Shown here one piece after another: positions 18,052 through 39,037 of a stretch of DNA of 46,766 bases; within the stretch, counting starts at the first letter, position 1, and each line of letters starts with the position of its first letter. Origin of the DNA: Rhodoplanes serenus (GTDB taxonomy: Bacteria > Pseudomonadota > Alphaproteobacteria > Rhizobiales > Xanthobacteraceae); assembly GCA_945861855.1 (NCBI GenBank), contig CAMAWG010000013.1, positions 1 to 46,766 of the forward strand. Direction: 5' to 3'. The translations under genes were made by a program, and so were the position numbers. The notes under the pieces are model-generated. The model worked only from the letters and a program-made list of their open reading frames with translations. It did no database searches and was not told the DNA's origin.

Positions 18052-18070
18052 GGGTGGTGTCTCAATGTTT

Positions 18071-19066: not shown

Positions 19067-19155
19067 AGTATCTAGGCGATCGATCGGGCCTTTGCAACTG
19101 CTTTTGCGTCTCCGCGCAATTGTATTCCACGGATTGTGCGGTGCGTGCTTTCCCA

Positions 19156-19176
19156 TTCCAGAAAGTGCATATATTC
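19156..19176 (+). promoter_or_regulatory. Candidate SoxR operator, site 3
   Basis: It reads TTCCAGAAAGTG followed by CATATATTC. The inverted repeat CCAGAA (19158-19163) / TTCTGG (19174-19179) brackets it. Identity with site 1 is 15 of 21, and TGCATATATTC differs from TGCATATGTTC of site 1 at one base. It lies about 90 bases ahead of soxA. Confidence 0.45.
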
Positions 19177-19264
19177 TGGCATGGATCGGCTGCGGCGTTT
19201 GTCGAGCTTGACTCCGGCAGAGCGGCCAAGAAACAAGAAGACAACGAGCAGTGGAGGAATCGGC

Positions 19265-22833: not shown

Positions 22834-24036
22834 ATGGCCGGGCTGCTCGCGGGCCTGCGGGTTCTCGATCTCACCAATGTGCTGGCGGGCCCGTTCTGCT
22901 GCTATCAGCTCGCGCAGCTCGGCGCCGAGGTGATCAAGGTCGAGACGCCGGGGACGGGCGATCTCGCGCGCCAGCTCGGCGCCGATCCCGAGCTCAATCG
23001 CCGCCTGATGGGCGCGTCATTCCTGGCGCAGAACGCCGGCAAGCGCTCGATCACGCTCAACCTGAAGAACGACAAGGCCCGCGAGGCGTTCACGCGGCTG
23101 GCGAAGACGTCCGACGTGGTGGTGGAGAATTTCCGCCCTGGCGTGATGGACCGGCTGGGGCTCGGCTACGACACGCTGAAAGGCATCAAGCCCGACCTGA
23201 TCTATTGCGCGATCTCCGGCTTCGGCCAGGATGGGCCGCTGAAGCTCAATCCGGCCTATGACCAGATCATCCAAGGCCTGTCCGGCGTGATGAGCGTCAC
23301 CGGCGACGCGCAATCGGCGCCGCTCCGCGTCGGCTATCCGGTGGCCGACACGATGGGCGGGATCACCGCGGCCTATGCGATCAGCGTCGCGCTGTTCCGC
23401 CGCGAACGGACCGGCGAGGGCGAGTTCATCGACGTGTCGATGCTGGAGTCGACCCTGGTGGCGATGGGATGGGTGGTGTCGAACTGGCTGATCGCCGGCG
23501 TCCGGCCGGAGCCTTTGGGCAACGAGAACATGACCGCGAGCCCCTCCGGCACATTCCGCACCGGCGATGGCCTGCTCAACATTGCCGCCAACCAGCAGCA
23601 GCAGTTCGAGGCGCTGTGCCGGTTAATCGGCCGGCCGGAGCTCGTGGCCGATCCGCGCTTCGCCGGCCGTGAGGACCGCAAATGCAATCGCTTCGAGCTG
23701 AACAAGGAGATCGAGCAGGCGCTGGCGGTTCGCTCCGCGAAAGAATGGTCGGCGCTGATGAACGACGGCGGCGTACCGGCCGGCGAAGTGCTCGACGTGC
23801 CCGCGGTGCTGGAGCATCCGCAGATCGTCGGGCGCGGGCTTCTGCGCACATTCACCGACGTGCCGGATGTCGACAAGGACGTGAGCGTGGTGCGTTCCGG
23901 CTTTCGTCTTGCGAGCGGCGATCCCGCGCCGGCCTCGCCGCCGCCGGCGCTCGGCGCCGACACCGGGAGCCTGCTTGCCGAGCTCGGCTATTCCGGAAGC
24001 GAAATTGAAGCGCTGGCGCGCGACAAAGCCATCTAG
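22834..24036 (+). CDS. Family III CoA-transferase (CaiB/BaiF type)
   Basis: The 400-residue protein has family III motifs: GLRVLDLTNVLAGPFCCYQLAQLGAEVIKVETPGTGD, NAGKRSITLNLKN, VVVENFRPGVMDRLGLGYDTLK and ISGFGQDGP. In FIDVSMLEST the position of the catalytic aspartate of formyl-CoA transferase seems to hold Glu205. It would move CoA between acids. GAGGAGG lies before the ATG. It starts 37 bases after soxR on the same strand, and the citryl-CoA-lyase-like gene follows 12 bases later, so the two probably make an acyl-CoA and cleave or condense it. Confidence 0.88.
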   Translation: MAGLLAGLRVLDLTNVLAGPFCCYQLAQLGAEVIKVETPGTGDLARQLGADPELNRRLMGASFLAQNAGKRSITLNLKNDKAREAFTRLAKTSDVVVENFRPGVMDRLGLGYDTLKGIKPDLIYCAISGFGQDGPLKLNPAYDQIIQGLSGVMSVTGDAQSAPLRVGYPVADTMGGITAAYAISVALFRRERTGEGEFIDVSMLESTLVAMGWVVSNWLIAGVRPEPLGNENMTASPSGTFRTGDGLLNIAANQQQQFEALCRLIGRPELVADPRFAGREDRKCNRFELNKEIEQALAVRSAKEWSALMNDGGVPAGEVLDVPAVLEHPQIVGRGLLRTFTDVPDVDKDVSVVRSGFRLASGDPAPASPPPALGADTGSLLAELGYSGSEIEALARDKAI

Positions 24037-24048
24037 GGAGTGACGTCG

Positions 24049-24903
24049 GTGACGAAATCCAGAGTTCGCAGGAAAAGGCCGGAAAAGACCCCGGAGGAGT
24101 GGTGGTCCACGTCCATCATCGACATGAAGCCGGGCATGATCCGCTTCCGCGGCTACGCCATCGAGGATCTGATCGGGCGCGCCGGCTTTGCCGACATGGT
24201 CTATCTCCTGACGCGCGGCGAGCTACCGCATCCGGAAGCCGCGAAGCTGCTCGAAGCAGCCTTGGTCGCGGCGGTGGATCACGGCCCGCAGGCGCCGTCG
24301 ATCGCGGCGGCGCGCATGGCGATGACCTGCGGCGTCGGCATCAACAATGCGATGGCGTCGGCGATCAACATGCTGGGCGACGTGCACGGCGGTGCGGGCG
24401 AGCAGGCCGTTGCGTTCTACAATGCCATCGCCATGCGCCTCGGCAAATCAGCCGACAAGAAACGCATGGCGCAGGCGGTGAGGGCCGAGATCGACGCGCT
24501 GGCGAAGCAAGGTGTCCGCCATGTGCCCGGCTACGGCCACCGCTTCCATCCGCTCGATCCGCGCGCCCCGCGCCTTCTGGCGCTTGTCGATGCCGCGAAA
24601 AAATCCGGCGCGGTCAGCGGCCGCTTTGCCGCCGTCGGCCGCGCCATCGAGGCGCAGCTTGCCGAAAGGGCTGGCCATCCGATCCCGATGAACATCGACG
24701 GCGCGACCGGCGTGGTCTATGCCGAACTCGGCTTTCCGCCGCCGCTCTGCCGCGGGCTTTTCGTGCTGTCGCGCTCGGTCGGTGCGCTCGCCCACGCCTT
24801 CGAGGAGATGCAGTCCGGCGAGCGCAGCAAGGGTCCGATCCCGCGCCACCTGATCTGGAATTACACCGGCCCGCCGCCGCGCAAGGCCCCCCGCAGAAAA
24901 TAG
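24049..24903 (+). CDS. Short citrate-synthase-like protein, citryl-CoA lyase type
   Basis: The 284-residue protein keeps the citrate-synthase catalytic set: His113 in GDVHGGAGEQA, His164 in GYGHRFHPLDPRA and Asp217 in MNIDGATG. It is much shorter than citrate synthase (about 430 residues) and lacks most of the N-terminal part, as do citryl-CoA lyases. With the CoA-transferase just upstream, the likely reaction is retro-aldol cleavage (or formation) of a citryl-, malyl- or citramalyl-type CoA ester. The GTG at 24049 is chosen because AGGGAG at 24035-24040 overlaps the other GTG at 24040. It ends three bases from the convergent cupin gene. Confidence 0.82.
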   Translation: MTKSRVRRKRPEKTPEEWWSTSIIDMKPGMIRFRGYAIEDLIGRAGFADMVYLLTRGELPHPEAAKLLEAALVAAVDHGPQAPSIAAARMAMTCGVGINNAMASAINMLGDVHGGAGEQAVAFYNAIAMRLGKSADKKRMAQAVRAEIDALAKQGVRHVPGYGHRFHPLDPRAPRLLALVDAAKKSGAVSGRFAAVGRAIEAQLAERAGHPIPMNIDGATGVVYAELGFPPPLCRGLFVLSRSVGALAHAFEEMQSGERSKGPIPRHLIWNYTGPPPRKAPRRK

Positions 24904-24906
24904 CGC

Positions 24907-25308
24907 CTAGTGCGCGTCGCGTTCGTCGGCGTACCAGGACGGCTTTTCCGGATAATGCGGGCCGTCATAGACCTCGATCACGATGGTGTCCTCATGCGCG
25001 ACCGCCGGGCCGTGCACATTGCCCTTCGGATTGCAGTAGAAGCTGCCCGCCGTCAGCACCACGCCGGTTGAGGTGTATTCGTACTTGCCCGAAAGGCAGA
25101 TCATGAACTGGTTCGACGAATGATAGTGCGGCTGCGGAATCCCCGCGCCCTTGGCGAACCGGATCATCGCGATCGAGGCGCCGGTCTCCTCGTTCCGCCA
25201 CAGCATCTTCTCCGAAATGCCTTTCAGCGATTTTTCCCGCCACGGCATTTTCGCGGTGTCGACCAGGATCTCTTCGAGCCTGGGCGCTCCTTCGGGCAGC
25301 TTGACCAT
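24907..25308 (-). CDS. Single-domain cupin, end of F420 gene string
   Basis: The 133-residue cupin has metal motif 1 PQPHYHSSNQFMICLSGKYEY (two histidines and a glutamine) and motif 2 GSFYCNPKGNVHGPAV. It resembles small ChrR/dioxygenase-like cupins, which bind iron or zinc; the reaction is unknown. GAGGAA precedes the ATG at 25308, and the frame from 25431 is rejected because it begins in the M24 gene. It starts 11 bases after the M24 stop, so it is probably the last gene of the F420 string. Confidence 0.82.
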   Translation of the reverse strand: MVKLPEGAPRLEEILVDTAKMPWREKSLKGISEKMLWRNEETGASIAMIRFAKGAGIPQPHYHSSNQFMICLSGKYEYTSTGVVLTAGSFYCNPKGNVHGPAVAHEDTIVIEVYDGPHYPEKPSWYADERDAH

Positions 25309-25319
25309 CGGTTCCTCGT

Positions 25320-26543
25320 TTATCCCGGCAATTGCTGAAAGTCGGTCGAGAACGAATGCATCCGCCTCGCGCCATCGCCGGTGATGGTGATGGTCTCGGC
25401 GAACACGCAGCCGGTCTCGCCGTTGTGCCATTTGGGATCGAACAGGTCGATGTTCATGGCGAACACCATGCCGGTCTTGAACTCGTCGCCGATCGCCTTG
25501 AGCGCGACGTCGTCAGCGCCATGCACATGATGGCGGTAGCGCGGATATTCCAGCGAGGCGAGGCCGTGGCCGTGGATGCCGGCTTCGCAGATGCCAAATC
25601 CCGACCCGGTGATGACGTCGCGCACCGCATCCATCGCCGTCGAGATCTTTGCGCCCGGCTTGAACAAATTGAGCCCCGTCCGGTATGCGGTCAGGCACGC
25701 CTCGTAGATGTCGAGATAGCGCGGCTCGGGTGATCCCAGACAGAAGGTGCGCTCGACGTGGGTGTAATAGCCGCCGAACTTCGGGTGCATCTCGCAGATG
25801 ATCATGTCGCCCTTCTCGAGCGGGCGCATGGTCGGCACGCGGAACGGATGCGGGTAGGGATGCTTGTCGGCGGCCCACAGGAACAGCGTCGGTTCCTCAC
25901 CGCCGTTCGACATCATCGCATGCATCATGTTGGCGTAAACCTCGCACTCTTTGACGCCGGCGCGCGCCGTGTCGCGGCAGGTCGCGAGCATGAGATCGCC
26001 GAGCTTCGCCGCCTTGTCGAGCGCCGCGATTTCCTCCGCGCTCTTCACCACGCGAAGCTTCTCCATCATGTCTTCGAGATTGACGAGGTCGATGCCCGGC
26101 AGCCGGTCCTTGAGCCGGTTGTAGAGGCTGTGCGGCGTCCAGCCGTCCGGGTCGAGTGGACCGGCGAGGCCGTCGATGCCGATCTTCGCATTGGTCATTT
26201 TCAGCTCGGTCAGGCGGCCGGCGATGCTGTCGGCAAAGGTGCCCTTGCGCGAACGCACGTCGGCGACCCAGCTCTGCGCACCCTTCCAGTAGTCCGTGAA
26301 CACCGGCGAGAAGACGAAGGTGGTTGGTTCGCCTGCCAGCGGAAACACCAGCACGTTGTGCTCGGAATTGCCGCCGATCGGGCAGAGATAGCGCGCGTTG
26401 GCGATGTTGAAGTCCCACATCGCCGGCCAGCCGATCAGCACGAGGCAGTCGAGGCCGCGCTTTTCCATCTCGGCGCGGGTGAGCGCCCAGCGCCGGTCTC
26501 GCTCTTTCAGCGACAGCGTCGGATATTCGGTAAGCTTGCGCAT
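25320..26543 (-). CDS. Creatinase-like M24 protein with degenerate metal site
   Basis: The 407-residue protein has the two-domain creatinase/prolidase layout: an N-terminal domain (1-165) and a pita-bread domain (from VKSAEEIAALDKAAKL). In the latter the usual two aspartate metal ligands are replaced by Glu251 (MIICEMHPKFGGYYTHVERTF) and His262, while His326 (GIHGHGLAS) and Glu383 (FAETITIT) remain. The fourth position is FAMNIDLFDP instead of an EP motif. Like creatinase, which needs no metal, it may hydrolyse a C-N bond without metals. It lies 21 bases after the epimerase in the F420 string. A role in peptides, creatine-like compounds or an F420-linked substrate is all possible. Confidence 0.82.
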   Translation of the reverse strand: MRKLTEYPTLSLKERDRRWALTRAEMEKRGLDCLVLIGWPAMWDFNIANARYLCPIGGNSEHNVLVFPLAGEPTTFVFSPVFTDYWKGAQSWVADVRSRKGTFADSIAGRLTELKMTNAKIGIDGLAGPLDPDGWTPHSLYNRLKDRLPGIDLVNLEDMMEKLRVVKSAEEIAALDKAAKLGDLMLATCRDTARAGVKECEVYANMMHAMMSNGGEEPTLFLWAADKHPYPHPFRVPTMRPLEKGDMIICEMHPKFGGYYTHVERTFCLGSPEPRYLDIYEACLTAYRTGLNLFKPGAKISTAMDAVRDVITGSGFGICEAGIHGHGLASLEYPRYRHHVHGADDVALKAIGDEFKTGMVFAMNIDLFDPKWHNGETGCVFAETITITGDGARRMHSFSTDFQQLPG

Positions 26544-26564
26544 GGCCGTTTCCTCGATTTTCTT

Positions 26565-27527
26565 TTAGACGCCGAGTTTCTTCAGCGCCGCCAGATAATC
26601 CGCGATGCCCTTTTCCAGATCGTATTCGGGCTTGTAACCCAGCTCGTCGCGCGCGCGGGAAATGTCATAGACGCCGGTTGCGGGATAAGGAAAGCCGTAG
26701 AAATTTAGGCCCCCACCGATCTCCATCTGCGCGTTCGGGATGTGCTTCTTGATGACGCGCTCGAAGTCGCGCAGCGTCACGCCCACGCCGGTGCCGATAT
26801 TGTAGACGCGGCTCTTGAGCTTTTCCGCGACGGTCGCGAGATAGATGCCGAGCGCCGAGTCTTTATTGTAAACAAAATCGTCCTTGTCGTCGCCGCCCTG
26901 TTCAAGCTTGAACGGCAGCCCATGCGCCGGGTTCTCGACGATCCGGCTCATCACCGCCATCGGCCCGTGCCGCGCGGTCTTGCCGGGACCGTAGGTCGAG
27001 GCAAAGCGCAGCGATACCGTCTCGATGCCCATGTTGTCGTTGTAATAGGCGCAGACGTTCTCACCCATGAACTTCGCCGAGTCGTAGATGCGCTTCGGCT
27101 TCGCCGGCAGGTCCTCTGACATCGGCTTCCAGGTCGGCGAGCCGTATTCGCCGAGCACCGGGCCGTAGACGCCCTTTGCGCTGGTGAATACCACGCGCTG
27201 CACGCCGAGCGCGCGGGCGGCCTCCAGCACGTTGACGAGGCCCATCACGTTGACCTGGATGCTCAGCGCCGGATTGCCCGCCGACACCGCACCGACGAAG
27301 GCCGCGGCATGCACGACATGCGTGACCTTGTGCTTCTTGATCGCCTGCAGGATGCGCGGCATGTCGAGCACGTCGCCCTGCTCGAAGTCGAACTTGTCGA
27401 GGATGTCGCCGACCAGGCTGTCGTCGCGGTGGCGGGCGAAGATCACCGGCCGGTGGCCTTCGCGCACGAACTTGCGGCTCGTTTCGGCGCCGATGACGCC
27501 CATGCCGCCTGTGATCAGGACCTTCAC
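26565..27527 (-). CDS. NAD-dependent epimerase/dehydratase (extended SDR), joined to F420 string
   Basis: The 320-residue protein has the extended SDR pattern: GGMGVIG (7-13) for NAD binding, [28 protein letters not shown] and the catalytic YDSAK (Tyr148, Lys152). The C-terminal part, [25 protein letters not shown], is that of sugar-nucleotide epimerases and related lyases. The GTG at 27527 overlaps the cofC stop by four bases (GTGA), with GGGAG just before it, so it is translated with the F420 genes. The substrate is unknown; the F420 pathway itself does not need such an enzyme. Confidence 0.85.
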
Positions 27528-28141
27528 GCCGGTGCTCCCGACGCCGCGAGTTGTTCTCTGGCGTAGCGCCGGTATTCGTCCGGCGTATCGAGATCGTGCG
27601 CGAGCCCCGGCCGGCGCAGGATGCGAGTTCTCATACCTTGCGCCTTCGCCGCGTCGAGATGCGCCTGAAAGCTGTCCGGCCCGAAGCGGAAGAAATCGGG
27701 TGTCGGCGGCGCCAACGCGAGCGCGTTGGTTCCCTGCTCTTGCTCGTCGGGCGCGATGACGCAAGCTGGCCCGGCGCCGAGCGCCGAGACGAGCGCCTTC
27801 ACGTCGTCGGCTGTGACGGTGGGAAGATCGCTTGGCAGCACCGCGACGGCGCGTGCGCCGTGTTCCGCGGCATATCGGGTGGCGAGGCTGAGCGCCGCGT
27901 TCAAGCCGCCGCCCGTGTCCTCCAGGGCATGCAGCCCCTGGCCGCGCATCAGCGCGAGCAGCAGCGGGTCTGCGGTCACGACCACGGCATGCGCGGGCTT
28001 GAACGTGTCGAGCGTCACGTCGAGCACGCGGCCGAACAGCCGCCGGTTGAGGGCGGCCCGGTCGTCGGTGCCCAAAAGCCCGGCCAGCCGCGACTTGCCC
28101 GCGCGAAACGGTTTGACGGGGATGATGGCCCAGCATTCCAT
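27524..28141 (-). CDS. cofC: CofC, phospho-lactate-type guanylyltransferase of F420 synthesis
   Basis: The 205-residue protein has the CofC pattern: [19 protein letters not shown] near the start (nucleotide binding), [49 protein letters not shown] and the terminal [15 protein letters not shown]. It activates a three-carbon phospho-acid (2-phospholactate, phosphoenolpyruvate or 3-phosphoglycerate, depending on organism) with GTP for CofD. It starts three bases after the cofD stop. Which acid is used cannot be told from the sequence by eye. Confidence 0.9.
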
Positions 28142-28144
28142 GCG

Positions 28145-29101
28145 CTATTCCACTGCTTCCGTGGCCAGTTCAAAGGCGAACCCGACCGCATCTTGCGCCA
28201 GCCGCCGCTTGTCGTCGAGCGTGCGCATGATGGTGTCGCAGACCTTGACCCGGCAGCCCAGCGCCTCGATGGCCGGCGCCAGATCGCGATCGACGGTGTC
28301 GATGACCCAGCCGCCGACCAGCCGGCCGTAGTGCTGCGCCACGCCGAGGGCAGAAGGCTCGACGCCGAACTCGCCCATCATCTTGCCGAGCGGCCCCTTG
28401 ATCGCCTTGCCGCCGACGATCGGCGAGACCGCAGCCACCGGGCGCCTGCGCAGCGCGTCCTTGATTCCGGGCAGCGCCAGGATCGGATCGATGCTGACGA
28501 ATGGGTTGGACGGCGCAATGACGATGGCTTGCGCGCGGCCGAGCGCCTGCCGGAACGCTTCGCCCGGCTTGGCCTTCGCCGCGCCCCGGAACGTCACGCC
28601 GCGAAACGTCGGCTTGCACTGCCGCCGCACGAAATAATCCTGGAAATCGAGCGTGCCTTCGTTGGTCTCGACCACGCTGCGGATAGGATCGTCGCTCATC
28701 GGCAGGACCGAATGCGCGATACCGAGGCGGCGCGCCAGGAGCGCGGTGACCTCCGATAGCGTGCGGCCCTTGGCCAGCGCTTCGGTCCGCAGAACATGCG
28801 TCGCCAGATCGCGGTCGCCGAGCTTGAACCAGGTCTGCCCGCCGAGCCGCTCCAGCGCCGCCATGAAATTCCACGTCTCGCCGGCGAGCCCCCAGCCGCG
28901 CTCAAGATCGTTCATATCGGCGAGCGCGTAGAGCACCGAGTCGACGTCGGGCGAAATGTGCAGGCCAAGATGAACGAAATCGTCGGCGGTGTTGACAACG
29001 ATGGCGAGCCGTTCGGGTGGCAGCACGGCGGCAAGACCGCGGCAGAATTTTCCGCCGCCGACGCCGCCGGCCAGTGCGAGAACGAGTCTCTCATCCGTCA
29101 T
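28145..29101 (-). CDS. cofD: CofD, 2-phospholactate transferase of F420 synthesis
   Basis: The 318-residue protein has CofD motifs: [21 protein letters not shown] at the start, [59 protein letters not shown] and [19 protein letters not shown]. It transfers the phospho-acid from the GDP-activated form to the deazaflavin Fo, giving F420-0 or its dehydro form. The start is ATG at 29101. It lies 8 bases after cofE and 3 bases before cofC. Confidence 0.95.
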
Positions 29102-29109
29102 GCGGCCCC

Positions 29110-29904
29110 TCAGCGGAACAGGTCGATCTCGCGCGGCCGGATCAGATCGTCCGCCGATCCGTCTGCGACGGGCAGAGTGAGCCCCCGCAGCAGCACGACC
29201 GGAGTGCCTTCGCCGGCCTGGCCCATCAGCATTGACGCTGCCGCGGCGATCTCGTCGGCGATGCCGACCTCGGTGGAGCGCAATTCGCGGCCGAACAGGT
29301 CGGGCGTGCCGCGGAGATCGAGCAGCGTTGGCAGCCCAGCCGCGCCGAGCGCCACGCCGACCGTGCCGTTCCGCCACGCGCGGCCCAGGCTGTCGATCAT
29401 CAGCACGCCCGCCTCGATGCCGGTGTCTTTTGCAAGCCGCGCCCTGATCTCGCGGCACGAGCGGTTGCAGTCTTCCGGCAGCAGCAGCACGCGATGCTCG
29501 TCGGCCGACACGTTCGAGGCATCGATCCCCGCGTTCGCCAACACGATGCCGCTGCGATGCGCCACGACCAGCACGTTCTTGCGGTGCCGCACCACCTCGG
29601 TGGATTCGCGAAGGATCAGCTCGACCAGCCGCGGGTCCTTGTCCACCTCGGCGGCGACTGTTTGCGCGCGTGCCGATGGCGTCACCTCGCGCAGATCGAC
29701 AACGCGCCTTTCGGCCTTGGACACGATTTTTTGCGCGACGACGACGATGTCGCCGCGCCGCAACGCAAAACCGGAGGCGGCCAGCCCTTGCAGGATCAGG
29801 TCGGCGACGTTGTCGCCCGGCTGCACCAGCGGAATCCCCGCCAGCGCCGAGATGCTCAATTCGGCGGCGGGCTTGGCGCTGGGTTTTGCGGCGGGACTAG
29901 CCAT
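29110..29904 (-). CDS. cofE: CofE, F420:gamma-glutamyl ligase (stand-alone)
   Basis: The 264-residue protein has CofE motifs: GIPLVQPGDNVADLILQGL, RRGDIVVVAQKIVSKAERRVVDL, RHRKNVLVVAHRSGIVLANAGIDASN, LLLPEDCNRSC, VLMIDSLGRAWRNGTVGVALGAAGLP and RSTEVGIADEIAAAASMLMGQAGEGTPVVLLRG. It adds glutamates to F420-0 using GTP. It has only the ligase domain and lacks the C-terminal flavin reductase domain of mycobacterial FbiB. The ATG at 29904 follows GGAGG and overlaps the end of the npdG gene by eight bases. Confidence 0.93.
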   Translation of the reverse strand: MASPAAKPSAKPAAELSISALAGIPLVQPGDNVADLILQGLAASGFALRRGDIVVVAQKIVSKAERRVVDLREVTPSARAQTVAAEVDKDPRLVELILRESTEVVRHRKNVLVVAHRSGIVLANAGIDASNVSADEHRVLLLPEDCNRSCREIRARLAKDTGIEAGVLMIDSLGRAWRNGTVGVALGAAGLPTLLDLRGTPDLFGRELRSTEVGIADEIAAAASMLMGQAGEGTPVVLLRGLTLPVADGSADDLIRPREIDLFR

Positions 29905-30583
29905 CGGTCGCCTCCGCCGGCAGTCCGGTGATGGCAATCCCGGAATGCTTCACTTTGTACTGGCGGTTGAGGGTGATCAGCACCGAGGTCAAAGCCTCGG
30001 CCACCACGGAATTCGCCAAAGGCCCCGCGTGGAACGCGCGCATGCCGGCGTCCCGCGCCAGCGCGATCACCTGCGCGCGCGCGTCGCGGTCGTCGCCGCA
30101 CACCAGCACGTCGCAGTCGATGGCATGGCCGATCTCTATCAGGAGTTCCGCCGAGACGTTCTGGAACGCCGAGACGACCCGCACGCCGGAGCCAAGCATC
30201 GCCTGCGCCTTGACCACGGCAGAGCCGCCGTCCGGCAGTTGCACGCGGCCGACCTGCGGCGGGACGAGCGGCACGGTGACGTCGACCAGGATTTTTCCGA
30301 TAAGCGCGGTCTTGACCTCCTCCAGGGTCGGAAGCTGCGCGGCATAGGGCACCGTAAGCACGACCACGTCGCTGCTCTGCGCCGCGGCGAGGTTGCCTGT
30401 GCCCTCCGCGCGATCCACGCCGACACGCGCGTTGATTGCGGCGGCGGCGGCCTGCGCGCGCGCGGGTTCCCGCGAGCCGATCACGATATGGTGGCCGGCA
30501 TGGGCCCAGCGCAGCGCCAGGCCCGAGCCCTCCTTGCCGGTGCCGCCGAGCACGGCGATTTTTTGCTTTGGTTCCGGATGCAT
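29897..30583 (-). CDS. npdG: F420H2:NADP+ oxidoreductase (Fno/NpdG)
   Basis: The 228-residue protein has GGTGKEGSG (13-21) near the start for NADP binding, IVIGSREPARA, DVVVLTVPYAAQ and VVSAFQNVSAELL, all typical of NADPH-dependent F420 reductases. It moves hydride between NADP(H) and F420, so it supplies reduced F420 to other enzymes. Presence within the synthesis string indicates that F420 is used as a redox carrier here. The ATG at 30583 is five bases after the fbiC stop. The long upstream frame to 31474 is a shadow of fbiC. Confidence 0.92.
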   Translation of the reverse strand: MHPEPKQKIAVLGGTGKEGSGLALRWAHAGHHIVIGSREPARAQAAAAAINARVGVDRAEGTGNLAAAQSSDVVVLTVPYAAQLPTLEEVKTALIGKILVDVTVPLVPPQVGRVQLPDGGSAVVKAQAMLGSGVRVVSAFQNVSAELLIEIGHAIDCDVLVCGDDRDARAQVIALARDAGMRAFHAGPLANSVVAEALTSVLITLNRQYKVKHSGIAITGLPAEATDG

Positions 30584-30588
30584 GGCGT

Positions 30589-33045
30589 TCAGCCCGCCGC
30601 GAGCGCGCGCGGCCGGGCGGCGCGCGTGGCAATGAGCGGCGCCAGTTCCGGCGCCCGGTACGACGCCGCGCGGCGGGTGGCCGGAGCGTCCTTGTAGAGC
30701 GTCGTGCGCTGGCGTGGGGTGCGCCCGAGTGAAGCGATCAAAACGTCCATCTGCTCGGGCGAAAACTCCTGGCCGTGTTCGGTTCCGGCCGCCCGCGAGA
30801 TGCTTTCGTTCATCAGGGTGCCGCCGAGATCGTTGGCACCGGCGTTGAGACAGGCGGCGGCGCCGTCGGACCCAAGCTTCACCCACGACACCTGGATGTT
30901 GGGGATCAATGGATGCAGCACCAGCCGCGACACCGCGTGCATCAGCACCGTCTCGCGGAATGTCGGGCCCTTGCGGGCGCGGCCCTTCAAATAAAGCGGC
31001 GCCTCCATGTGCACGAACGGAAGCGGCACGAATTCGGTGAATCCGCCGGTGCGTGCCTGCAGATCGCGGATGTGCAGAAGGTGCCGCGCCCAATGCTGCG
31101 GCCGATCGATATGGCCGAACATGATGGTCGCGGTGGTCGGCAGGCCGCGCCGGTGCGCTGCCTCGACGATGGCCAGCCACTGCTCCGTCGAAAGCTTGTC
31201 GGGGCACAGCACGGCGCGCACCTCGTCGTCGAGGATTTCCGCCGCGGTCCCGGGCAGGCTGCCGAGCCCTGCATCGCGCAGCCGGTCGAGATAGTCGCCG
31301 ATGCCAAGCCCAAGGCTGGTTGCGCCGTGATGGACTTCGAGCGGCGAGAAGGCATGCACATGAATGTCGCTCACCGCGCGCCTGGCGGCGTCGAGGATCG
31401 ACAGGTAAGTGTCGCCGGTGTAGCGCGGATGGATGCCGCCCTGCATGCAGACTTCGGTTCCGCCGCGGGTCCATGCCTCGCGCACGCGGCGGGCGATCTC
31501 CTCGCCGTCGAGGTCGTAGGCCGGGCCGCGCAGCGTGTCGCCGAGCCTGCCCTTGGAGAAGGCGCAGAACCTGCAGCCGTAGCTGCAGACGTTGGTGTAG
31601 TTGATGTTGCGGTTGACGACGTAGCCGACAGTGTTGCCGCTGACGCTCTTTCGCAGATCGTCCGCTGCGGCGCAGACGGCATCGAACTCACCCCCGCGCG
31701 CCTGGAACAGCGCGACGATCTCGTCCTCGCCGAGCCGATGGCCTGCTTCGGCGCACCGGACGATCCGGTCGAGCGCCGACGATGCGATGGCCGGCGCCTT
31801 CAATGAATTGCTTGCTTGTGCCCCGCCTCGTCGTCCCGGCGCCCATTCCTCGCCGCGCGCGAACCCGTCCGCGTCGGAGGCGCGCAGCACCGCCGTCTGC
31901 CCCGCCGGGTCGAGCCATTGCACCGGCTCGCGCACGTACGCCGGATAGATCGCCAGCCGTTCGGTTAGGCACTTGCCTGCCGCTGCCGTCTCCGCGCGCA
32001 GGCGCTCGATCGCGGGCCACGGCGCTTCGGGATTGACGTGATCGGGAGTCACCGGCGAGACGCCGCCCCAGTCGTTGATGCCGGCGGCGATCAGATCGGC
32101 CATGAGGCCGGGGCTGAGATTCGGCGGCGCCTGGATGTTCATGTCTGGCCCAAACACGATCCGCGCCATCGCCACGGTCCAGAGCATGTCGGTGCCGGAT
32201 GGTTCAGCCGCGCGGGCCATGCCGGTGTCGTCCTTGGCGCGAAAGTTCTGGACGATGACCTCCTGGATATGCCCGTGGCGGCGATGCGACGCCTCGATCG
32301 CCAGCAGCGAGTCGATCCGCTCGGCCCGCGTCTCGCCGATGCCGATCAGGATGCCGGTGGTGAACGGCACCTTGAGTTTGCCCGCTGCCTCGATGGTTGC
32401 CAGCCGGACAGCCGGCTCCTTGTCGGGCGAGCCGTGGTGCGGGCCGCCGCACAGGCCAAGGCGCGGCGAGACGTTCTCCAGCATCATGCCCTGCGACACC
32501 GACACGCGGCGGAGCGCCGAAACATCGGCCTCGCTCATCACTCCGGGGTTGACGTGCGGCAGGAGCCCCGTCTCGCGCAGCACCAGCGCACATATCGCCA
32601 CGAGATAATCGACCGTGGTCGCATATCCGAGCCGCGCCAGCGCCCGCCGCGCGGCCTCGTATTTCAGCTCCGGCTTGTCGCCCAGTGTGAACAGCACCTC
32701 CTGGCAGCCGGCGGAAGCGCCTGCGCGGGCGATGGCCAGGACCTCGTCCGGCGAGAGATAGGCGGACGCGACCCCGCGCGGGCCGCGCACGAAGGTGCAA
32801 TAGCGGCAGGTGTCGCGGCAAAGCCGGGTCAGCGGGATGAACACCTTGCGCGAGTAGGAGACAATCTGTCCGTGGCCCCGGTCGCGCAGCCGCGCGGCTT
32901 CCGCCATGAGTTCGGGGAGGGGCGCCGCGGCCCAGCGTTCGATCGCATCGCGGGGCGCCGCTGCCGTCAGCACGTTGGAATACTCCCGATACCGGTCGAA
33001 AACGTCTGAACTGAGCGAGCCCGCCCTGCTTTGGCGGTGCAGCAT
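30589..33045 (-). CDS. fbiC: FbiC, Fo synthase (CofG-CofH fusion)
   Basis: The 818-residue protein carries two radical SAM domains. The N-terminal CofG half has CRDTCRYC (Cys76, Cys80, Cys83) and the C-terminal CofH half has CSYGCRFC (Cys487, Cys491, Cys494). Together they make the deazaflavin Fo from tyrosine and a flavin precursor. The fused form is the actinobacterial type; archaea and cyanobacteria have separate proteins. Family blocks VLFTLGDKPELKYEAARRAL, TGILIGIGETRAER, GGIHPRYTGDTYLSIL and MNESISRAAGTEHGQEFSPEQM are intact. It heads the F420 string. The start has no clear ribosome site, so the exact first codon is uncertain. Confidence 0.95.
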   Translation of the reverse strand: MLHRQSRAGSLSSDVFDRYREYSNVLTAAAPRDAIERWAAAPLPELMAEAARLRDRGHGQIVSYSRKVFIPLTRLCRDTCRYCTFVRGPRGVASAYLSPDEVLAIARAGASAGCQEVLFTLGDKPELKYEAARRALARLGYATTVDYLVAICALVLRETGLLPHVNPGVMSEADVSALRRVSVSQGMMLENVSPRLGLCGGPHHGSPDKEPAVRLATIEAAGKLKVPFTTGILIGIGETRAERIDSLLAIEASHRRHGHIQEVIVQNFRAKDDTGMARAAEPSGTDMLWTVAMARIVFGPDMNIQAPPNLSPGLMADLIAAGINDWGGVSPVTPDHVNPEAPWPAIERLRAETAAAGKCLTERLAIYPAYVREPVQWLDPAGQTAVLRASDADGFARGEEWAPGRRGGAQASNSLKAPAIASSALDRIVRCAEAGHRLGEDEIVALFQARGGEFDAVCAAADDLRKSVSGNTVGYVVNRNINYTNVCSYGCRFCAFSKGRLGDTLRGPAYDLDGEEIARRVREAWTRGGTEVCMQGGIHPRYTGDTYLSILDAARRAVSDIHVHAFSPLEVHHGATSLGLGIGDYLDRLRDAGLGSLPGTAAEILDDEVRAVLCPDKLSTEQWLAIVEAAHRRGLPTTATIMFGHIDRPQHWARHLLHIRDLQARTGGFTEFVPLPFVHMEAPLYLKGRARKGPTFRETVLMHAVSRLVLHPLIPNIQVSWVKLGSDGAAACLNAGANDLGGTLMNESISRAAGTEHGQEFSPEQMDVLIASLGRTPRQRTTLYKDAPATRRAASYRAPELAPLIATRAARPRALAAG

Positions 33046-33310
33046 GGCCGAAGTTGCGGCGGCGGTGCAATTCGCTTGTCCCGAAGGGGCCCATGCCGTC
33101 CGCGCATTCGGGATCGGGTGCGGCTGAATGCTGGTCTCGCCGGCGCTCTCGGCCGTTCCAAAACCGGGTGAATCTCGAATTGTACCAATGTATTCAATGG
33201 ATAAGCCCGGATTTTAACGCTTCTTTCACCCTGATAGGCAAGCATGTCACGACCGTTGGGCCGTCAGCGATACCGCCGGACAGGCGGTGGAAAAGATCAT
33301 GTAAGTGTCG

Positions 33311-35818
33311 ATGACGGCGGGACATTCCAAACCGCGGCGCATGTTTCGTGGGCTCAGCGCAAGCATTGCGTTGAAGCTTTATTGCTTCGCGTTCCTGGCC
33401 CTGTTGGCCGTGGCGTCGCTTTCGATCGCATCGATCTATTTTTCCAGGACGACGGAAAGCGCCGCCCACCGTCTTTATGGCGATGGCCTCCTCGGCGTCC
33501 TGAGTTCAACCCGCCTCGAACTTCTGCTCGCCAAACATCGCCACACCGTGGAGCGTATGCCGGGCGAAGCGGACCGGATCCGGCGTCAGGCGCTGCGCCA
33601 TGAACTCGATCAGTTCAGCCTCCGGCTATCGGACCTGATCGGGGAGATCGCCTCGAAAGCCGTGCTCGATCCGGATTCTCTGGAAAGCCGCATCGCCGAA
33701 GGCCTGCCGCCGCTGTTCGAGGCGGCGGATCAGGTCGCGCTCCACGCCGCCGAATCCGCGCCGGACAAAGCTGCCGAAGCGGCCAGCACCTACACACTGA
33801 TCGCCGGCGGTGTCGAACTGCTGATCAAGGATTACCGCGAGTTTCGCATCAAGGAGGCGCAGGAGGCCATCAGCTTCGTCAGCGCGGCGGCAAGGTCGCT
33901 CTCGCTGTGGGTTCTGCTGTCCGCTTTCGCGGCGATCGTGCTGGTCGGCCCGATCGGGCTCGCCACCATGCACCGCGGGCTGGCGCGGCTTGGCGGCATC
34001 ACCCAGGCGATGACGAGGCTTGCCCGCCACGACACCACCACCATCGTCCCGTCGCGCGACGACCGCGACGAGGTCGGCGCCATGGCGCGTGCCGTGGAGG
34101 TGTTCAAGGACAACGCCATCCAGCTCATCGCCCGCGAGGTCGAGCTCAAGCAGCTCAACCGCCGCGTCGACATCGCCTTGAACAACATGACCCACGGGCT
34201 GTGCATGTTCGATGCCGAGCTGAAGCTGATCGTCTGCAACAAGACCTACGTCCAGATGTACGAACTCACTCCCGAGCTGGCGAAGCCTGGGACGGTGCTG
34301 CAGGCGATCGAGAACTATCGCGCCACCATCGGCAACGGCGCGATAGCCACCCCAGAGCAGATGGCGGCAGCGACCGCCATCGATGCGCGCGAGGCCTCCG
34401 CCTTCACCCAGGAGCTGATGGACGGCCGCGTCGTCGCGGTGTCGCAGCGGCCGATGCAGGACGGCGGCTGGGTCGCCGTGCACGAGGACGTCACCGAGCG
34501 CCGGCGCGCCGAGACCAAGATCGCGCATCTGGCGCGCCACGACATGCTGACCAATCTGCCCAACCGCGTGCTGTTCCGTGAGCATCTGGAGAATGCCTTC
34601 GACCGCGTTCAGCCGGGCCGGGGATTCGCCGTGCATTGCCTCGATCTCGATCATTTCAAGACCGTCAACGACACGCTTGGCCATCCGATCGGCGACGAGC
34701 TCCTGAAGCTGGTGGCCGCGCGCCTGATCGAGGCGGTGCCGTCCACGGATTTCATCGCCCGCATCGGCGGCGACGAATTCGCGGTGGTGCAGACCGACGT
34801 CAGCCGGCCCGAGCAGTGCAGCCAGCTCGCCTCCCGCATCGTCGAACTGGTCAGCCGGGCCTACGACATCGACGGCCGCCACATCGTGATCGGCACCAGC
34901 ATCGGCATCGCGATCGCGCCCAACGACGGCTCGAACCCCGATATGCTCCTGAAGAACGCCGACATGGCGCTCTACCTCGCCAAGGGCGACGGCCGCGGCA
35001 CCCATCGCTTCTTCGAACGCGAGATGGACAAGCGGCTGCAGTTGCGCCGGGCGCTGGAGCTCGATCTCCGCAAGGCCATTGCCGGCGGCGAATTCGAGAT
35101 CTATTACCAGCCGATCCTCTATCTTCAGACCGGCAAGGTCAGCGGCTTCGAAGCCCTGCTGCGCTGGAACCACCCCGAGCGCGGCATGATCTCGCCGGCC
35201 GACTTCATTCCGCTGGCGGAGGAAACCGGACTGATCCTGCCGCTCGGCGAATGGGTGCTGCGCACCGCCTGCACGCATGCGGCCAAGTGGCCGCAGCCGG
35301 TCGCCGTCGCGGTCAATCTGTCGGCCAAGCAGTTCAAGGGCCGCAACCTCGTGCAGTTGACGCTGAATGCGCTGGCCGCATCGGGCCTGCCGCCGGGGCG
35401 CCTCGACCTTGAGATCACCGAGTCCGTGCTGCTTCAGGACGAGTCCCATACGCTCGCGATCCTGCATCAGCTTCGCGAGCTGGGCGTGCGCATCTCGATG
35501 GACGATTTCGGCACCGGCTATTCGTCGCTCGCGTATCTGCGAAATTTCCCGTTCGACAAGATCAAGATCGATCGCTCCTTCGTCCGCGACATGCTGGTGC
35601 GCAAGGATTGCCAGGCCATCGTTCGCGCGGTGGTGGGCCTGGCGCGCAGCCTCGGCATCACCACCATCATCGAGGGCGTCGAGACCAAGGAGCAGTTAGA
35701 GACCGCCAAGGCCGACGGCTGCGACGAGGGGCAGGGCTACCTGTTCGCCAAGCCGATGCCGGAGGGCGAGGTTGCCGAATACCTCGCCCGATGCGCGCGG
35801 GTCGCCGCCGCGGCGTGA
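33311..35818 (+). CDS. Membrane-bound GGDEF/EAL protein with HAMP and PAS domains
   Basis: The 835-residue protein has a membrane segment (about 20-40), a periplasmic part, a second segment (about 195-218), a HAMP linker (GLARLGGITQAMTRLARHDTT...DEVGAMARAVEVFKDNAI), a PAS-like domain (NNMTHGLCMFDAELKLIVCNKTYVQMYEL), then GGDEF (486-490) and EAL (614-616, in FEALLRWNHPERG). Both catalytic motifs are intact, so it could make and break cyclic di-GMP. The 265-base spacer before it separates it from divergent fbiC; no clear regulatory site was seen there. The start could also be GTG at 33305. Confidence 0.9.
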   Translation: MTAGHSKPRRMFRGLSASIALKLYCFAFLALLAVASLSIASIYFSRTTESAAHRLYGDGLLGVLSSTRLELLLAKHRHTVERMPGEADRIRRQALRHELDQFSLRLSDLIGEIASKAVLDPDSLESRIAEGLPPLFEAADQVALHAAESAPDKAAEAASTYTLIAGGVELLIKDYREFRIKEAQEAISFVSAAARSLSLWVLLSAFAAIVLVGPIGLATMHRGLARLGGITQAMTRLARHDTTTIVPSRDDRDEVGAMARAVEVFKDNAIQLIAREVELKQLNRRVDIALNNMTHGLCMFDAELKLIVCNKTYVQMYELTPELAKPGTVLQAIENYRATIGNGAIATPEQMAAATAIDAREASAFTQELMDGRVVAVSQRPMQDGGWVAVHEDVTERRRAETKIAHLARHDMLTNLPNRVLFREHLENAFDRVQPGRGFAVHCLDLDHFKTVNDTLGHPIGDELLKLVAARLIEAVPSTDFIARIGGDEFAVVQTDVSRPEQCSQLASRIVELVSRAYDIDGRHIVIGTSIGIAIAPNDGSNPDMLLKNADMALYLAKGDGRGTHRFFEREMDKRLQLRRALELDLRKAIAGGEFEIYYQPILYLQTGKVSGFEALLRWNHPERGMISPADFIPLAEETGLILPLGEWVLRTACTHAAKWPQPVAVAVNLSAKQFKGRNLVQLTLNALAASGLPPGRLDLEITESVLLQDESHTLAILHQLRELGVRISMDDFGTGYSSLAYLRNFPFDKIKIDRSFVRDMLVRKDCQAIVRAVVGLARSLGITTIIEGVETKEQLETAKADGCDEGQGYLFAKPMPEGEVAEYLARCARVAAAA

Positions 35819-35929
35819 GCGGGCCTCTCGGATCGGAATGACAGGCGAGAGACGCTCGCGCTCGGCTTTACTCATCCCGGCGCGTTGCTAAAGTGCCCCT
35901 CGAAACCGGTTGCTCGCAGGGAGATCGCC

Positions 35930-36310
35930 ATGGGCTACGACAAGGGCCACAAGGAATTCCACGGCGTCGACATGAAGGAGGGATTCCACACGGTGCCCGG
36001 CTATCCGTGGGGCTTCTCGGAAAAAATCCTGGCGGGCTCGCTCGACGAGAAGAACAAGGTCGGCAACCGCACCCGCATCCTGAAGATCGAGGCGGGCGCG
36101 TTCTCAACCGTGCCCTTCGTGCACGAATACTGGGAAGAGGTGTTCCTGGTCTCCGGCGACCTGGTTTGCGGCAGCGACGCGCAGGGCAAGGGCGGCGAGT
36201 CGTTCACCGGGCCGACCTATTGCGTGCGTCCGCCCGGCGTCTATCACGGCCCGTTCACGTCCAAGAACGGCTGCCTGCTACTGGAGACGCACTACTTCGT
36301 GCCGAAGTAG
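35930..36310 (+). CDS. Single-domain cupin
   Basis: The 126-residue cupin has a motif-1-like stretch FVHEYWEEVFLVSGDLVCG and a motif-2-like stretch YCVRPPGVYHGPF. Metal binding residues are fewer than in classical cupins. AGGGAG lies before the ATG at 35930. It resembles small cupins found near aromatic or acid breakdown genes. Function unknown. Its end overlaps the opposite-strand small gene at 36255-36626 by 56 bases. Confidence 0.78.
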   Translation: MGYDKGHKEFHGVDMKEGFHTVPGYPWGFSEKILAGSLDEKNKVGNRTRILKIEAGAFSTVPFVHEYWEEVFLVSGDLVCGSDAQGKGGESFTGPTYCVRPPGVYHGPFTSKNGCLLLETHYFVPK

Positions 36311-37487: not shown

Positions 37488-37558
37488 GGGGCTCAATGCT
37501 CGCTTTTGCCTTTCCGCATGATAGGGTTTTGCAAGCCGGGACCACAATGGGAGCCGCG

Positions 37559-39034
37559 ATGCTGCGCACGGGCAAGGAACATCTGGAATCGCTGCGCGAC
37601 GGCCGCGTGGTCTATATCGGCGGCGAGCGCGTCGATGACGTCACGAGTCATCCGGCGTTCCGCGAGGCGGCCAAGACCGTCGCTGCCATCTACGACATGA
37701 AGGCCGACCCGGCGCTCCGCGACGTCATGACCTTCGAGGAGGACGGCGGCCGCCATTCCATTTACTTCCTGCGCCCGAAATCCCGCGACGGCCTGCAGCG
37801 GCGGATGGAGGGTCATCGCCGGATCGCGGATTTCACCTATGGCATGTTCGGCCGTTCGCCCGATCATATGGCGTCCTACGTCACCGGCATGGCGATGAAC
37901 CCCGGCGCGCTGCCTGAGCCGCACGGCCACGGCGACAACCTCGTGAAGTACCACCGCCACATCCGCGACAACGACACCTATGTCGCCCACGCGGTGGTGC
38001 CCCCGCAGGCCGCGCGCAATCCGGAATTCTATCAGCGCAAGAACATCGCGGCGCCGACGCTTCGCGTCATTCGCGAGGATGACGACGGCGTGGTCATCTC
38101 CGGCATGAAGATGCTGGCGACCGCCGCGCTCTATGCCAACGAAATCTGGATCGGCAACGTCATCCCGCTCGCCCCCGACCAGAAGAAGGAGTCGATCACC
38201 TGCGCCATCCCCTGCAACGCCCCGGGCCTGGCGCTGTGGTCGCGCAAGCCCGCGGCGGTGGGGCTCACGTCCGAGTTCGATTCGCCGCTCGCCTGGCGCT
38301 ACGACGAAAGCGACAGCATGCTGATGTGCGAGAACGTCAAGGTGCCCTGGGAGAGGGTGTTCGTCCACGACGACGCGCCGTTGTCGCGCGACATCTACAT
38401 CAAATCGGCGGCGCATTGCTTCGGCAATGTCCAGTCCTGCATTCGCTTCTGGTCGAAGATGCGGCTCCTGCTCGGCCTTTGCAGCCGGATTGCCAACGCC
38501 ACCGGCGCCGACCAGGTGCCCGCGGTGCGGGAGAAGCTCGGCGAAATGGCGGCGATCGAGGCCACGATTCACGGCCTGATCCACGGCCAGATCAACGCCT
38601 TCGAGAACTGGCCGGAGGGCTACGTCTGCTTCAACCACCGTTTCATGTATGCGGGCCTCGACTGGTGCACCCAGAACTACAGCCGCTTCATCGACGAATT
38701 GCGCACGCTCTGCGGCGGCAGCGTGTTCCAGATGCCGGCCGACATCTCGGTGCTGGAGAATCCGGAACTTGCCAGGCAGTTCGACGCCTTCTGGCAGACG
38801 CCGCAGGCGGATTCGCTCACGCGCATGAAGCTGTTCAAGCTCGCCTGGGATATGACCGGCTCGGAGTTCGCCGGCCGGCATCTGCAATACGAGAAGTTCT
38901 ACGCGGGCGCCGCGTTCATCGTCCGCGGCCACAGCTTCCGCGAGACCGACTGGGCGGAGTTCAACGCTCTGGTGGACAATCTGATGGCAAGCTACGACGT
39001 GCCGAACGTCGGCAAGCGCGTGGCGGCGGAGTAG
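37559..39034 (+). CDS. HpaB-type FADH2-dependent monooxygenase, tandem copy 1
   Basis: The 491-residue protein belongs to the 4-hydroxyphenylacetate 3-monooxygenase oxygenase family. Blocks include RTGKEHLESLRDGRVVYIGGERVDDVTSHPAF at the start, KYHRHIRDNDTYVAHAVVPPQAARNPEFY, DDDGVVISGMKMLATAALYANEIWIGN, WRYDESDSMLMCENVKVPWERVFVHDD and NAFENWPEGYVCFNHRFMYAGLDWC. It would hydroxylate a phenol-like compound using reduced flavin supplied by a separate reductase, which is not in the window. GGGAG precedes the ATG at 37559, which also matches the start of copy 2. Confidence 0.88.
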   Translation: MLRTGKEHLESLRDGRVVYIGGERVDDVTSHPAFREAAKTVAAIYDMKADPALRDVMTFEEDGGRHSIYFLRPKSRDGLQRRMEGHRRIADFTYGMFGRSPDHMASYVTGMAMNPGALPEPHGHGDNLVKYHRHIRDNDTYVAHAVVPPQAARNPEFYQRKNIAAPTLRVIREDDDGVVISGMKMLATAALYANEIWIGNVIPLAPDQKKESITCAIPCNAPGLALWSRKPAAVGLTSEFDSPLAWRYDESDSMLMCENVKVPWERVFVHDDAPLSRDIYIKSAAHCFGNVQSCIRFWSKMRLLLGLCSRIANATGADQVPAVREKLGEMAAIEATIHGLIHGQINAFENWPEGYVCFNHRFMYAGLDWCTQNYSRFIDELRTLCGGSVFQMPADISVLENPELARQFDAFWQTPQADSLTRMKLFKLAWDMTGSEFAGRHLQYEKFYAGAAFIVRGHSFRETDWAEFNALVDNLMASYDVPNVGKRVAAE

Positions 39035-39037
39035 GGC

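Follow-up and report, generated by a model that had tools for sequence, protein, structure and literature searches.

An F420-biosynthesis operon without fbiE in an uncultured Xanthobacteraceae bacterium

The window analysed here (a stretch of 46,766 nucleotides) very probably carries an F420-biosynthesis operon of an ordinary proteobacterial kind, which purifying selection maintains in a Xanthobacteraceae bacterium; fbiE, the dehydro-F420 reductase gene, is absent from it, and its trailing epimerase-family gene is probably outside the pathway. Gene identity, order, intact motifs and constraint were read from the sequence, and the reactions are those expected from characterised families. The host is a MAG of an uncultured Xanthobacteraceae (G000, 84.8% complete, 248 contigs) and falls in the same genus as a Xanthobacteraceae MAG, in agreement with the initial annotation, which had proposed a probable proteobacterium. 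The genes of the operon and its downstream neighbours are the following:

30589..33045, minus strand: fbiC, bifunctional FO synthase, CofG and CofH fusion, 818 aa (NF006687, 1144.7 bits)
29897..30583, minus strand: npdG (fno), NADPH-dependent F420 reductase, 228 aa (TIGR01915, 212.5 bits)
29110..29904, minus strand: cofE, stand-alone F420-0:L-glutamate ligase, 264 aa (TIGR01916, 262.8 bits)
29102..29109, minus strand: cofE/cofD junction of 8 bases, the fbiE slot in same-genus G001, Afipia sp. and Rhodovulum sp. PH10
28145..29101, minus strand: cofD, phospholactate/phosphoenolpyruvate transferase, 318 aa (TIGR01819, 317.6 bits)
27524..28141, minus strand: cofC (fbiD), guanylyltransferase, 205 aa (TIGR03552, 142.7 bits)
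26565..27527, minus strand: NAD-dependent epimerase/dehydratase-family gene (PF01370, E 8.7e-43), GTG start, 4-base overlap with cofC
25320..26543, minus strand: M24 peptidase/creatinase-like gene (PF00557, E 1.5e-28), part of the resident neighbourhood

The order fbiC, npdG, cofE, cofD, cofC, already proposed in the initial annotation, was confirmed on the minus strand. The whole-protein scores of all five products, far beyond chance, exceeded the curated NCBIfam cut-offs (1018 bits for CofGH in PRK09234 (NF006687), 149.8 for npdG, 180.65 for cofE, 257.45 for cofD and 105 for cofC). Junctions of at most 8 bases or overlaps had been claimed and were found: from 5' to 3' along the operon, fbiC and npdG are separated by 5 bases, npdG and cofE overlap by 8, and gaps of 8 and 3 bases follow between cofE and cofD and between cofD and cofC. 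The lower limit given for the string, 26565, had to be corrected, as CofC ends at 27524 and the stretch 27527-26565 is a sixth, previously unnamed gene of the epimerase family. With 212.5 bits against a cut-off of 149.8, NpdG qualifies as an F420:NADP oxidoreductase of the NpdG/Fno type, and its best solved structure, 5n2i, is an F420:NADP oxidoreductase. Residues 18-264 of CofE aligned with the A. fulgidus CofE (2phn); the protein is a single domain devoid of the FbiB nitroreductase domain and scored 203 bits with PRK13294 (FbiB), below the cut-off of 304. A scan of positions 24800-33400 for sigma-70-like promoters found none, the mean in shuffled sequences being 1.0.

The string had also been described as undamaged, and alignment for lost catalytic residues had been suggested as a check. 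The genes are intact and the FbiC cysteines and CofC ligands were all retained. The two radical-SAM CxxxCxxC motifs (C76/C80/C83 and C487/C491/C494) are invariant in the 13 aligned FbiC sequences, that of the window included. In a CofC survey of 73 rows (window included, at least one genome entered twice), K16, D105, N139 and S157 are conserved throughout and T138 is always T or S. Against same-genus copies, dN/dS values were 0.12-0.24 for FbiC, NpdG, CofE and CofD and 0.30-0.42 for CofC; for the pair formed by the window and G001, they were 0.22 (FbiC), 0.24 (NpdG), 0.22 (CofE), 0.23 (CofD) and 0.42 (CofC). CofC, 53% identical to that of G001, has diverged more quickly than the genes around it, which was counted against our explanation. 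Since these low values indicate that the operon is maintained, an F420-type product is probably made by the host.

By analogy with the characterised families, FbiC would form FO from tyrosine and a riboflavin intermediate. CofC would activate a C3 phospho-acid with GTP (PEP or 2-phospholactate, not 3-phosphoglycerate), CofD would join the activated acid to FO, CofE would add the glutamate tail, and NpdG would reduce the cofactor with NADPH. Synthesis of 3PG-F420 was rejected on the basis of CofC position 154, which is Gly in the window, where Mrhiz-CofC has S162. This position is Gly in 69 rows and Asp in 4, and Ser or Thr in none of the 73. According to the literature, the Mycetohabitans 3PG-F420 operon resembles that of the window in its Gram-negative host and stand-alone CofE, but its CofC has Ser at this diagnostic position. 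With the mycobacterial FbiA/FbiB/FbiC/FbiD pathway, the window shares the FbiC fusion and the FbiD substrate motif RFGPDS, carried by its CofC and by Mtb FbiD (6bwg); it differs in that CofE is not fused to a reductase domain and npdG lies inside the operon.

The initial annotation had called the string complete. Because fbiE is absent, the operon is incomplete for the PEP route, and the final reduction, needed only with PEP as precursor, would have to be avoided via 2-phospholactate or performed by a gene encoded elsewhere. The dehydro-F420 reductase of the PEP-dependent mycobacterial and Thermomicrobium systems, as FbiB C-terminal domain or as FbiE, was found neither in the operon nor in the 85% complete host assembly, where TIGR03553 gave no match at E≤1e-3. 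The three PF00881 proteins of this assembly fit other nitroreductase models better; one of them bears a weak resemblance to the Afipia FbiE (27% identity; E 9e-14, the database being tiny) and scored only 22.5 bits with the FbiB model. Between cofE and cofD, fbiE is present in G001, Afipia sp., PH10 and the chloroflexote Dictyobacter. The best solved match of the G001 FbiE protein is the C-terminal domain of Mtb FbiB (4xom, 109.5 bits; next 64). Loss of fbiE in the lineage of the window is the likelier history. Among 34 distinct FbiC-bearing genomes, a strong TIGR03553 match (at least 124 bits) was detected in 7, the other 27 remaining at 65 bits or less, so that the absence of fbiE is the common state.

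Since the assembly is 84.8% complete and split into 248 contigs, fbiE could sit in its missing part. It does move, as cofE-fbiE-cofD is on a different contig from fbiC in PH10 and fbiE lies beyond cofC in another genome (G032). A relocated fbiE, or one in the unassembled 15%, would complete the PEP route as in mycobacteria and Thermomicrobium; the lack of a TIGR03553 match in the host and the strong match in just 7 of the 34 genomes make this unlikely. That the host is truly devoid of fbiE and yet makes an F420-type cofactor, through 2-phospholactate (a route that has yet to be established in bacteria), by using dehydro-F420 or with an unknown reductase, is put forward with considerable doubt.

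The choice between PEP and 2-phospholactate (2-PL) in Gram-negative producers is discussed in passages of PMC6450877 and PMC8764529. A synthesis from 2-PL, as proposed for archaea, in which the reductase is not needed, can be entertained tentatively. In its favour, CofE is stand-alone and CofD is nearer to the archaeal CofD of M. mazei (3c3d, 248.5 bits) than to M. smegmatis FbiA (6uvx, 163.9 bits). In addition, the Oligotropha and Paracoccus CofC prefer 2-PL when paired with the M. jannaschii CofD (mBio 2022, PMC8764529). However, its authors caution that the choice of partner CofD may have produced this preference artificially, and the CofC/CofD pair of Ca. E. factor moved towards PEP with its cognate CofD. 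According to PMC6450877, no lactate kinase forming 2-PL has been identified. Furthermore, fbiE-bearing G001 has a CofD 71% identical to that of the window, and no residue of CofC, CofD or CofE separated operons with fbiE from those without it (7-8 versus 60-68 rows, related rows not being independent).

Reduction of dehydro-F420 by an unrelated reductase, or use of dehydro-F420 itself by the cell, appears rather doubtful. It would accommodate the 27 of 34 FbiC-bearing genomes without a strong fbiE match and the two alphaproteobacteria that, according to passages of PMC8498797, make detectable F420 in trace amounts. The operon, however, offers no candidate gene: the epimerase, considered as the missing F420 step, was rejected, as it is kept (88-95% identity) in five same-genus genomes without an FbiC match.

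In the initial annotation, F420 was held to be uncommon outside actinobacteria and archaea, and the FbiC fusion to be of actinobacterial type. Neither statement was supported. Within the host's order, an FbiC match was obtained in 47 of the 397 genomes sampled. Passages of a 2021 FEMS review (PMC8498797) place F420 on record in Proteobacteria (trace amounts in Oligotropha and Paracoccus) and the fusion in both Actinobacteria and Proteobacteria. The proposed FbiC phylogeny gave proteobacterial neighbours, the window FbiC lying inside a proteobacterial clade with an SH-aLRT support of 98%; as to the actinobacterial side, the tree holds a single row, Rhodococcus, which falls in this same clade and whose branch of 2.26 was marked unsure. 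FbiC identity was 57-68% to proteobacterial copies outside the genus and about 52% to Rhodococcus. According to passages of PMC8498797, the fusion arose in Actinobacteria and was later acquired by others, and PMC8764529 considers that Gram-negative F420 genes come most likely from actinobacteria. A recent direct transfer from actinobacteria is nevertheless highly improbable for this operon, given the position of FbiC in the 98% clade (shared with the unsure Rhodococcus row), the genome-like composition of 26565-33045 (GC 0.68, tetranucleotide correlation 0.945) and a one-domain CofE of 264 aa instead of the actinobacterial-type FbiB fusion.

The string is thus ordinary, since fused-FbiC operons are already known in Proteobacteria, FbiC occurs in the order as stated, and plasmid 2 of Aromatoleum aromaticum EbN1 (NC_006824.1) has the same order, fbiC-npdG-cofE-cofD-cofC, with fused FbiC (65% identical), stand-alone CofE and nothing between cofE and cofD. 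Unlike the window, the EbN1 operon is among insertion sequences on a plasmid typed as conjugative and is followed by a crotonase gene instead of the epimerase. The commonest arrangement fetched, npdG-cofE-cofD-cofC-fbiC (37 of 95 loci), encodes the same five enzymes with fbiC last, whereas it is first in the window. Less usual are the lack of the fbiE gene that the orthologous G001 operon has, and a second F420 set in the host assembly.

The G001 operon has the same five genes, an FbiC 78% identical and flanks in common, with the epimerase, M24 and cupin genes downstream and, upstream, a small gene (35885-36310 in the window) with others further out. It differs by fbiE between cofE and cofD and by the absence of the GGDEF-EAL gene (33305-35818) that separates fbiC from the small gene in the window; this gene is also absent there in G002. 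Of the 10 same-genus genomes searched, 6 carry the epimerase at 88-95% identity, five of these six being without an FbiC match; at E≤1e-60 it went undetected in G002, G005, G008 and G009. The M24 gene adjoins it in G001, G003, G004, G006, G010 and G012. The epimerase belongs to the site as a resident gene, probably one outside the F420 pathway. Beside it, only cofD-cofC are seen in G006 and only cofC in G003, and none of the five genes in G004, G007 and G010. An FbiC match is present in G001, G002, G005 and G008 and absent from the other six of the ten genomes (G003, G004, G006, G007, G009, G010); F420 thus seems dispensable in the genus. In G002 (MAG, 76% complete), whose contig ends inside npdG, a search for the other operon half gave no CofE match. 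The host assembly holds another five-gene F420 set, possibly a contamination, on a 5.6 kb contig with a GC of 0.689 and a tetranucleotide correlation of 0.877. Window pieces gave correlations of 0.913-0.961, and ten host loci, one of them itself a window piece, 0.847-0.947.

The initial annotation had further supposed that F420 is used, and no direct sign of this was seen. The sole luciferase-like gene on the contig is at least 22 kb from the operon, although, among the 51 loci that do not belong to the window-type group and extend 5 kb on both sides (all arrangements and phyla), 33 have such a gene within 5 kb, as do two members of the window's clade within 2 kb. The host has 32 PF00296 matches; 18 of the 31 scanned (a 112-aa LLM fragment was left out) hit TIGR03619, a model named for F420, at E≤1e-20. 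At E≤1e-3, FbiC-bearing genomes gave 34 (host), 41 (G001), 30 (G002), 10 (G005) and 27 (G008) matches and genomes without FbiC 61 (G003), 40 (G004), 57 (G006), 51 (G007), 22 (G009) and 34 (G010), in genomes of differing size and with a match above the curated cut-off in none of the 11. Luciferase-like abundance was therefore rejected as evidence of F420 use, same-genus genomes without FbiC being as rich in matches. PF04075 (F420H2-dependent quinone reductase-type) had no match in the host or in the control genomes, so that its absence from the host is uninformative.

Taken alone, this operon is one more member of a known group. Its contribution is a pair open to testing: as fbiE is present in the same-genus operon that G001 carries at this genomic site, the two operons form a natural with/without comparison, which bears on how Gram-negative producers devoid of FbiE obtain the saturated cofactor. 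Moreover, the genus provides a series in which the F420 operon is present, partial or absent while the neighbouring epimerase stays 88-95% identical.

In the window, the F420 genes and their immediate neighbour are arranged as follows:

33045-27524, minus strand: fbiC, npdG, cofE, cofD and cofC, in this order (five open reading frames)
27527-26565, minus strand: NAD-dependent epimerase/dehydratase-family gene with a GTG start, overlapping cofC by 4 bases

Read from the sequence, the operon junctions are a 5-base gap, an 8-base overlap, an 8-base gap and a 3-base gap, and the cut-offs of the curated NCBIfam models were exceeded by all five genes. The genes and their order were as described in the initial annotation, whose low end (26565) has to be corrected, as it takes in the sixth, epimerase-family gene (27527-26565). 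Downstream of the latter lie an M24 peptidase gene and then a cupin gene. The five enzymes would catalyse the reactions deduced from well-studied families.

The genes had been called undamaged, and this was borne out. In FbiC, both cysteine triplets of the radical-SAM type (76/80/83 and 487/491/494) showed no change across 13/13 aligned sequences. CofC K16, D105, N139 and S157 were unchanged in 73/73 surveyed rows, position 138 (T in the window) was T or S in 73/73, and D183 and D185 were present wherever the match extended that far (71/73). CofE and NpdG aligned to solved relatives over nearly their full length, as did CofD to archaeal CofD. For window FbiC, Nei-Gojobori dN/dS was 0.19-0.22 in comparison with two copies from the same genus; NpdG gave 0.12-0.24, CofE 0.22 and CofD 0.23-0.24, and CofC had higher values (0.30-0.42). 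The operon is maintained by selection.

The string had also been described as complete, which did not hold: no FbiE (dehydro-F420 reductase) is encoded in the operon, where just 8 bases separate cofE and cofD, and the window CofE is stand-alone. For Thermomicrobium, a separate homologue, FbiE, is described in passages of two papers (PMC6450877, PMC8498797). In the orthologous operon of G001, a same-genus genome, a 207-residue protein is encoded exactly between cofE and cofD. It scored 138.6 bits with the FbiB C-terminal model (cut-off 249.55, below which this and every other match found fall) versus 83.9 with BluB, and its best solved match was the C-terminal domain of Mtb FbiB (109.5 bits; next, 64). 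G001 and the window have in common the epimerase, M24 and cupin genes downstream and, upstream, several genes including a small one without a Pfam match (35885-36310). Between this small gene and fbiC, the window also carries a divergent GGDEF-EAL gene (33305-35818), missing from that place in G001 and in G002, another same-genus genome. The order cofE-fbiE-cofD was also found in Afipia sp. (L094), in Dictyobacter, a chloroflexote, and, on another contig, in Rhodovulum sp. PH10. The simplest reading is that fbiE was lost in the window lineage, a view based on a comparison of four genomes rather than on a reconstruction. A literature search restricted to open-licence PubMed Central found no description of a genus in which fbiE is present in some genomes and absent from others.

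The host MAG (4.48 Mb in 248 contigs, the window being C13) is 84.8% complete with 2.1% contamination. At that completeness, TIGR03553 gave no match in the assembly at E<=1e-3. Its three PF00881 proteins fit other nitroreductase models better, only that of malonic-semialdehyde-reductase type passing its own cut-off; one of them (L051) bears a weak likeness to Afipia FbiE (27% identity). When a strong fbiE match was set at 124 bits or more, with several incomplete MAGs among the genomes searched, 3 of 13 FbiC-bearing genomes of a first set had one (G001, G019, G032), as did 5 of 22 in a second set (Afipia sp., PH10, Neopusillimonas, Xanthobacteraceae Bin_30_3_2, Dictyobacter). Since PH10 is G019 (identical match coordinates), this makes 7 of 34 distinct genomes; all others gave 65 bits or less. 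Operons with fbiE and those without could not be told apart by any position in CofC, CofD or CofE.

A second complete set of the five F420 genes lies on a 5,574-base contig of the same assembly (C216; L036, 1-5574), with fbiC (plus strand) convergent with npdG-cofE-cofD-cofC (minus strand), and every one of these frames is open. Identity to the window set is 65% for FbiC and about 37-66% for the proteins overall. By its composition, this contig could belong to the host or be contamination. A dual set in the host genome is possible, because other genomes hold two full FbiC copies: the closed chromosome of Bradyrhizobiaceae AGun1 (L090, L095), G032, G040 and the single-contig G268.

The site was then compared among same-genus genomes. 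Of the 10 searched, 6 (G001, G003, G004, G006, G007, G010) have the epimerase gene at 88-95% identity, and of these G001 alone has an FbiC match; stretches of 14-19.5 kb around it were examined, and for G003 and G006 these stretches are the range covered for all F420 genes but fbiC. As it is kept in genomes mostly without FbiC, the epimerase is a resident of the site and probably not an F420 gene. None of the five F420 genes was found in the stretches beside it in G004, G007 and G010. The G006 stretch, which begins at a contig end in a genome with 9% estimated contamination, holds cofD and cofC, and that of G003 (single contig) cofC only, with T138 replaced by Ile and S157 by Cys. These leftovers need not be dead, since dN/dS between the two cofC genes is 0.18. 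At the expected place of fbiC-npdG-cofE, a gene for a large rhodanese/60KD_IMP/PPDK-N protein lies divergently beside them (G003, L193:1871-6010; G006, L194:3-3203; both minus); the G003 protein adds a PEP-utiliser domain, and the G006 copy is cut by the contig end. A TctC gene immediately precedes the epimerase in G007 and G010 and lies between cofC and epimerase in G003. G005 and G008, also of this genus, have an F420 operon arranged cofE-cofD-cofC-fbiC and no epimerase match.

The host is an uncultured member of the Xanthobacteraceae (Alphaproteobacteria), a family label inferred through G002, whose FbiC (26,555-base contig) is 87% identical to that of the window. Elsewhere, the window carries sulfur-oxidation genes (12554-19951: a flavocytochrome c sulfide dehydrogenase chain, SoxY and a molybdopterin oxidoreductase that we take to be SoxC-like) and two neighbouring HpaB-family (4-hydroxyphenylacetate 3-hydroxylase) genes (37496-40513). 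CaiB-type CoA-transferase and citryl-CoA lyase genes (22834-24903) lie just past the operon's neighbours; on a plasmid of Sphingobium TomTYG73 (L173:9202-12636), citryl-CoA lyase and CoA transferase genes also follow fbiC.

FbiC-type matches at E<=1e-100 were found in 47 of 397 sampled genomes of the host's order (host included) and in 13 of 61 close genomes (host included). Among the 47, 23 were full-length fusions, the host's among them, 23 were half-length, which suggests that CofG and CofH are encoded separately, and one was in two pieces; split and fused types are thus equally frequent in this order (23/397 each). The match in two pieces (G157:C2:192030-194365, genome 99% complete) has an internal TGA, and this fbiC is probably broken. 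Aromatoleum aromaticum EbN1 has the gene order of the window on its plasmid 2. According to passages of a FEMS 2021 review (PMC8498797), it is confirmed that F420 is produced in Proteobacteria, FbiC fusions occur in both Actinobacteria and Proteobacteria, and F420 is made in trace amounts by Oligotropha carboxidovorans and Paracoccus denitrificans.

The fusion had been regarded as the actinobacterial type. A quick maximum-likelihood tree was built from 103 FbiC rows, a single one actinobacterial (Rhodococcus). In it, window FbiC grouped with the G002 and G001 copies (99%) within a 98% clade of 12 rows. This clade also holds the host's second FbiC, PH10, Afipia sp., one of two copies each from AGun1 and G032, and one more proteobacterial MAG. 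The lone Rhodococcus row (branch 2.26, flagged unsure by the program) fell there too. Window FbiC shares 57-68% identity with the compared proteobacterial copies from other genera, and about 52% with Rhodococcus. A recent and direct transfer from actinobacteria is not supported; with one actinobacterial row only in the tree, an older transfer is possible. In L087, a contig labelled as a Klebsiella pneumoniae MAG, the order is cofE-cofD-cofC-fbiC and FbiC falls among those of gammaproteobacterial MAGs, so that the contig is probably mislabelled.

NpdG provides a route for F420 reduction with NADPH. The F420 had been presumed to be used, for which the surroundings gave no support. The only PF00296 (luciferase-like) match on the window contig (3445-4368) is 22 kb or more from the operon, whereas a luciferase-like gene lies within 5 kb in 33 of 51 other loci having 5 kb on both sides and, in the window's own clade, within 2 kb in L094 and L095. 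Across whole genomes of the genus, luciferase-like counts were no higher where FbiC is present than where it is absent. The window's luciferase-like gene (3430-4443) has a TonB receptor and a SnoaL-like gene as neighbours.

Regarding the precursor, Ser/Thr at position 162 of Mrhiz-CofC is presented as the mark of 3-phosphoglycerate use in an mBio 2022 article (PMC8764529). Window CofC has Gly at this position, in RFGPDS, as in Mtb FbiD; PEP or 2-phospholactate would therefore be expected. Window CofD scored higher with archaeal CofD (248.5 bits) than with FbiA (163.9 bits).

Overall, the F420 operon of the window is real, intact and under selection. It belongs to a known kind and lacks one step, a reduction, of the mycobacterial pathway.
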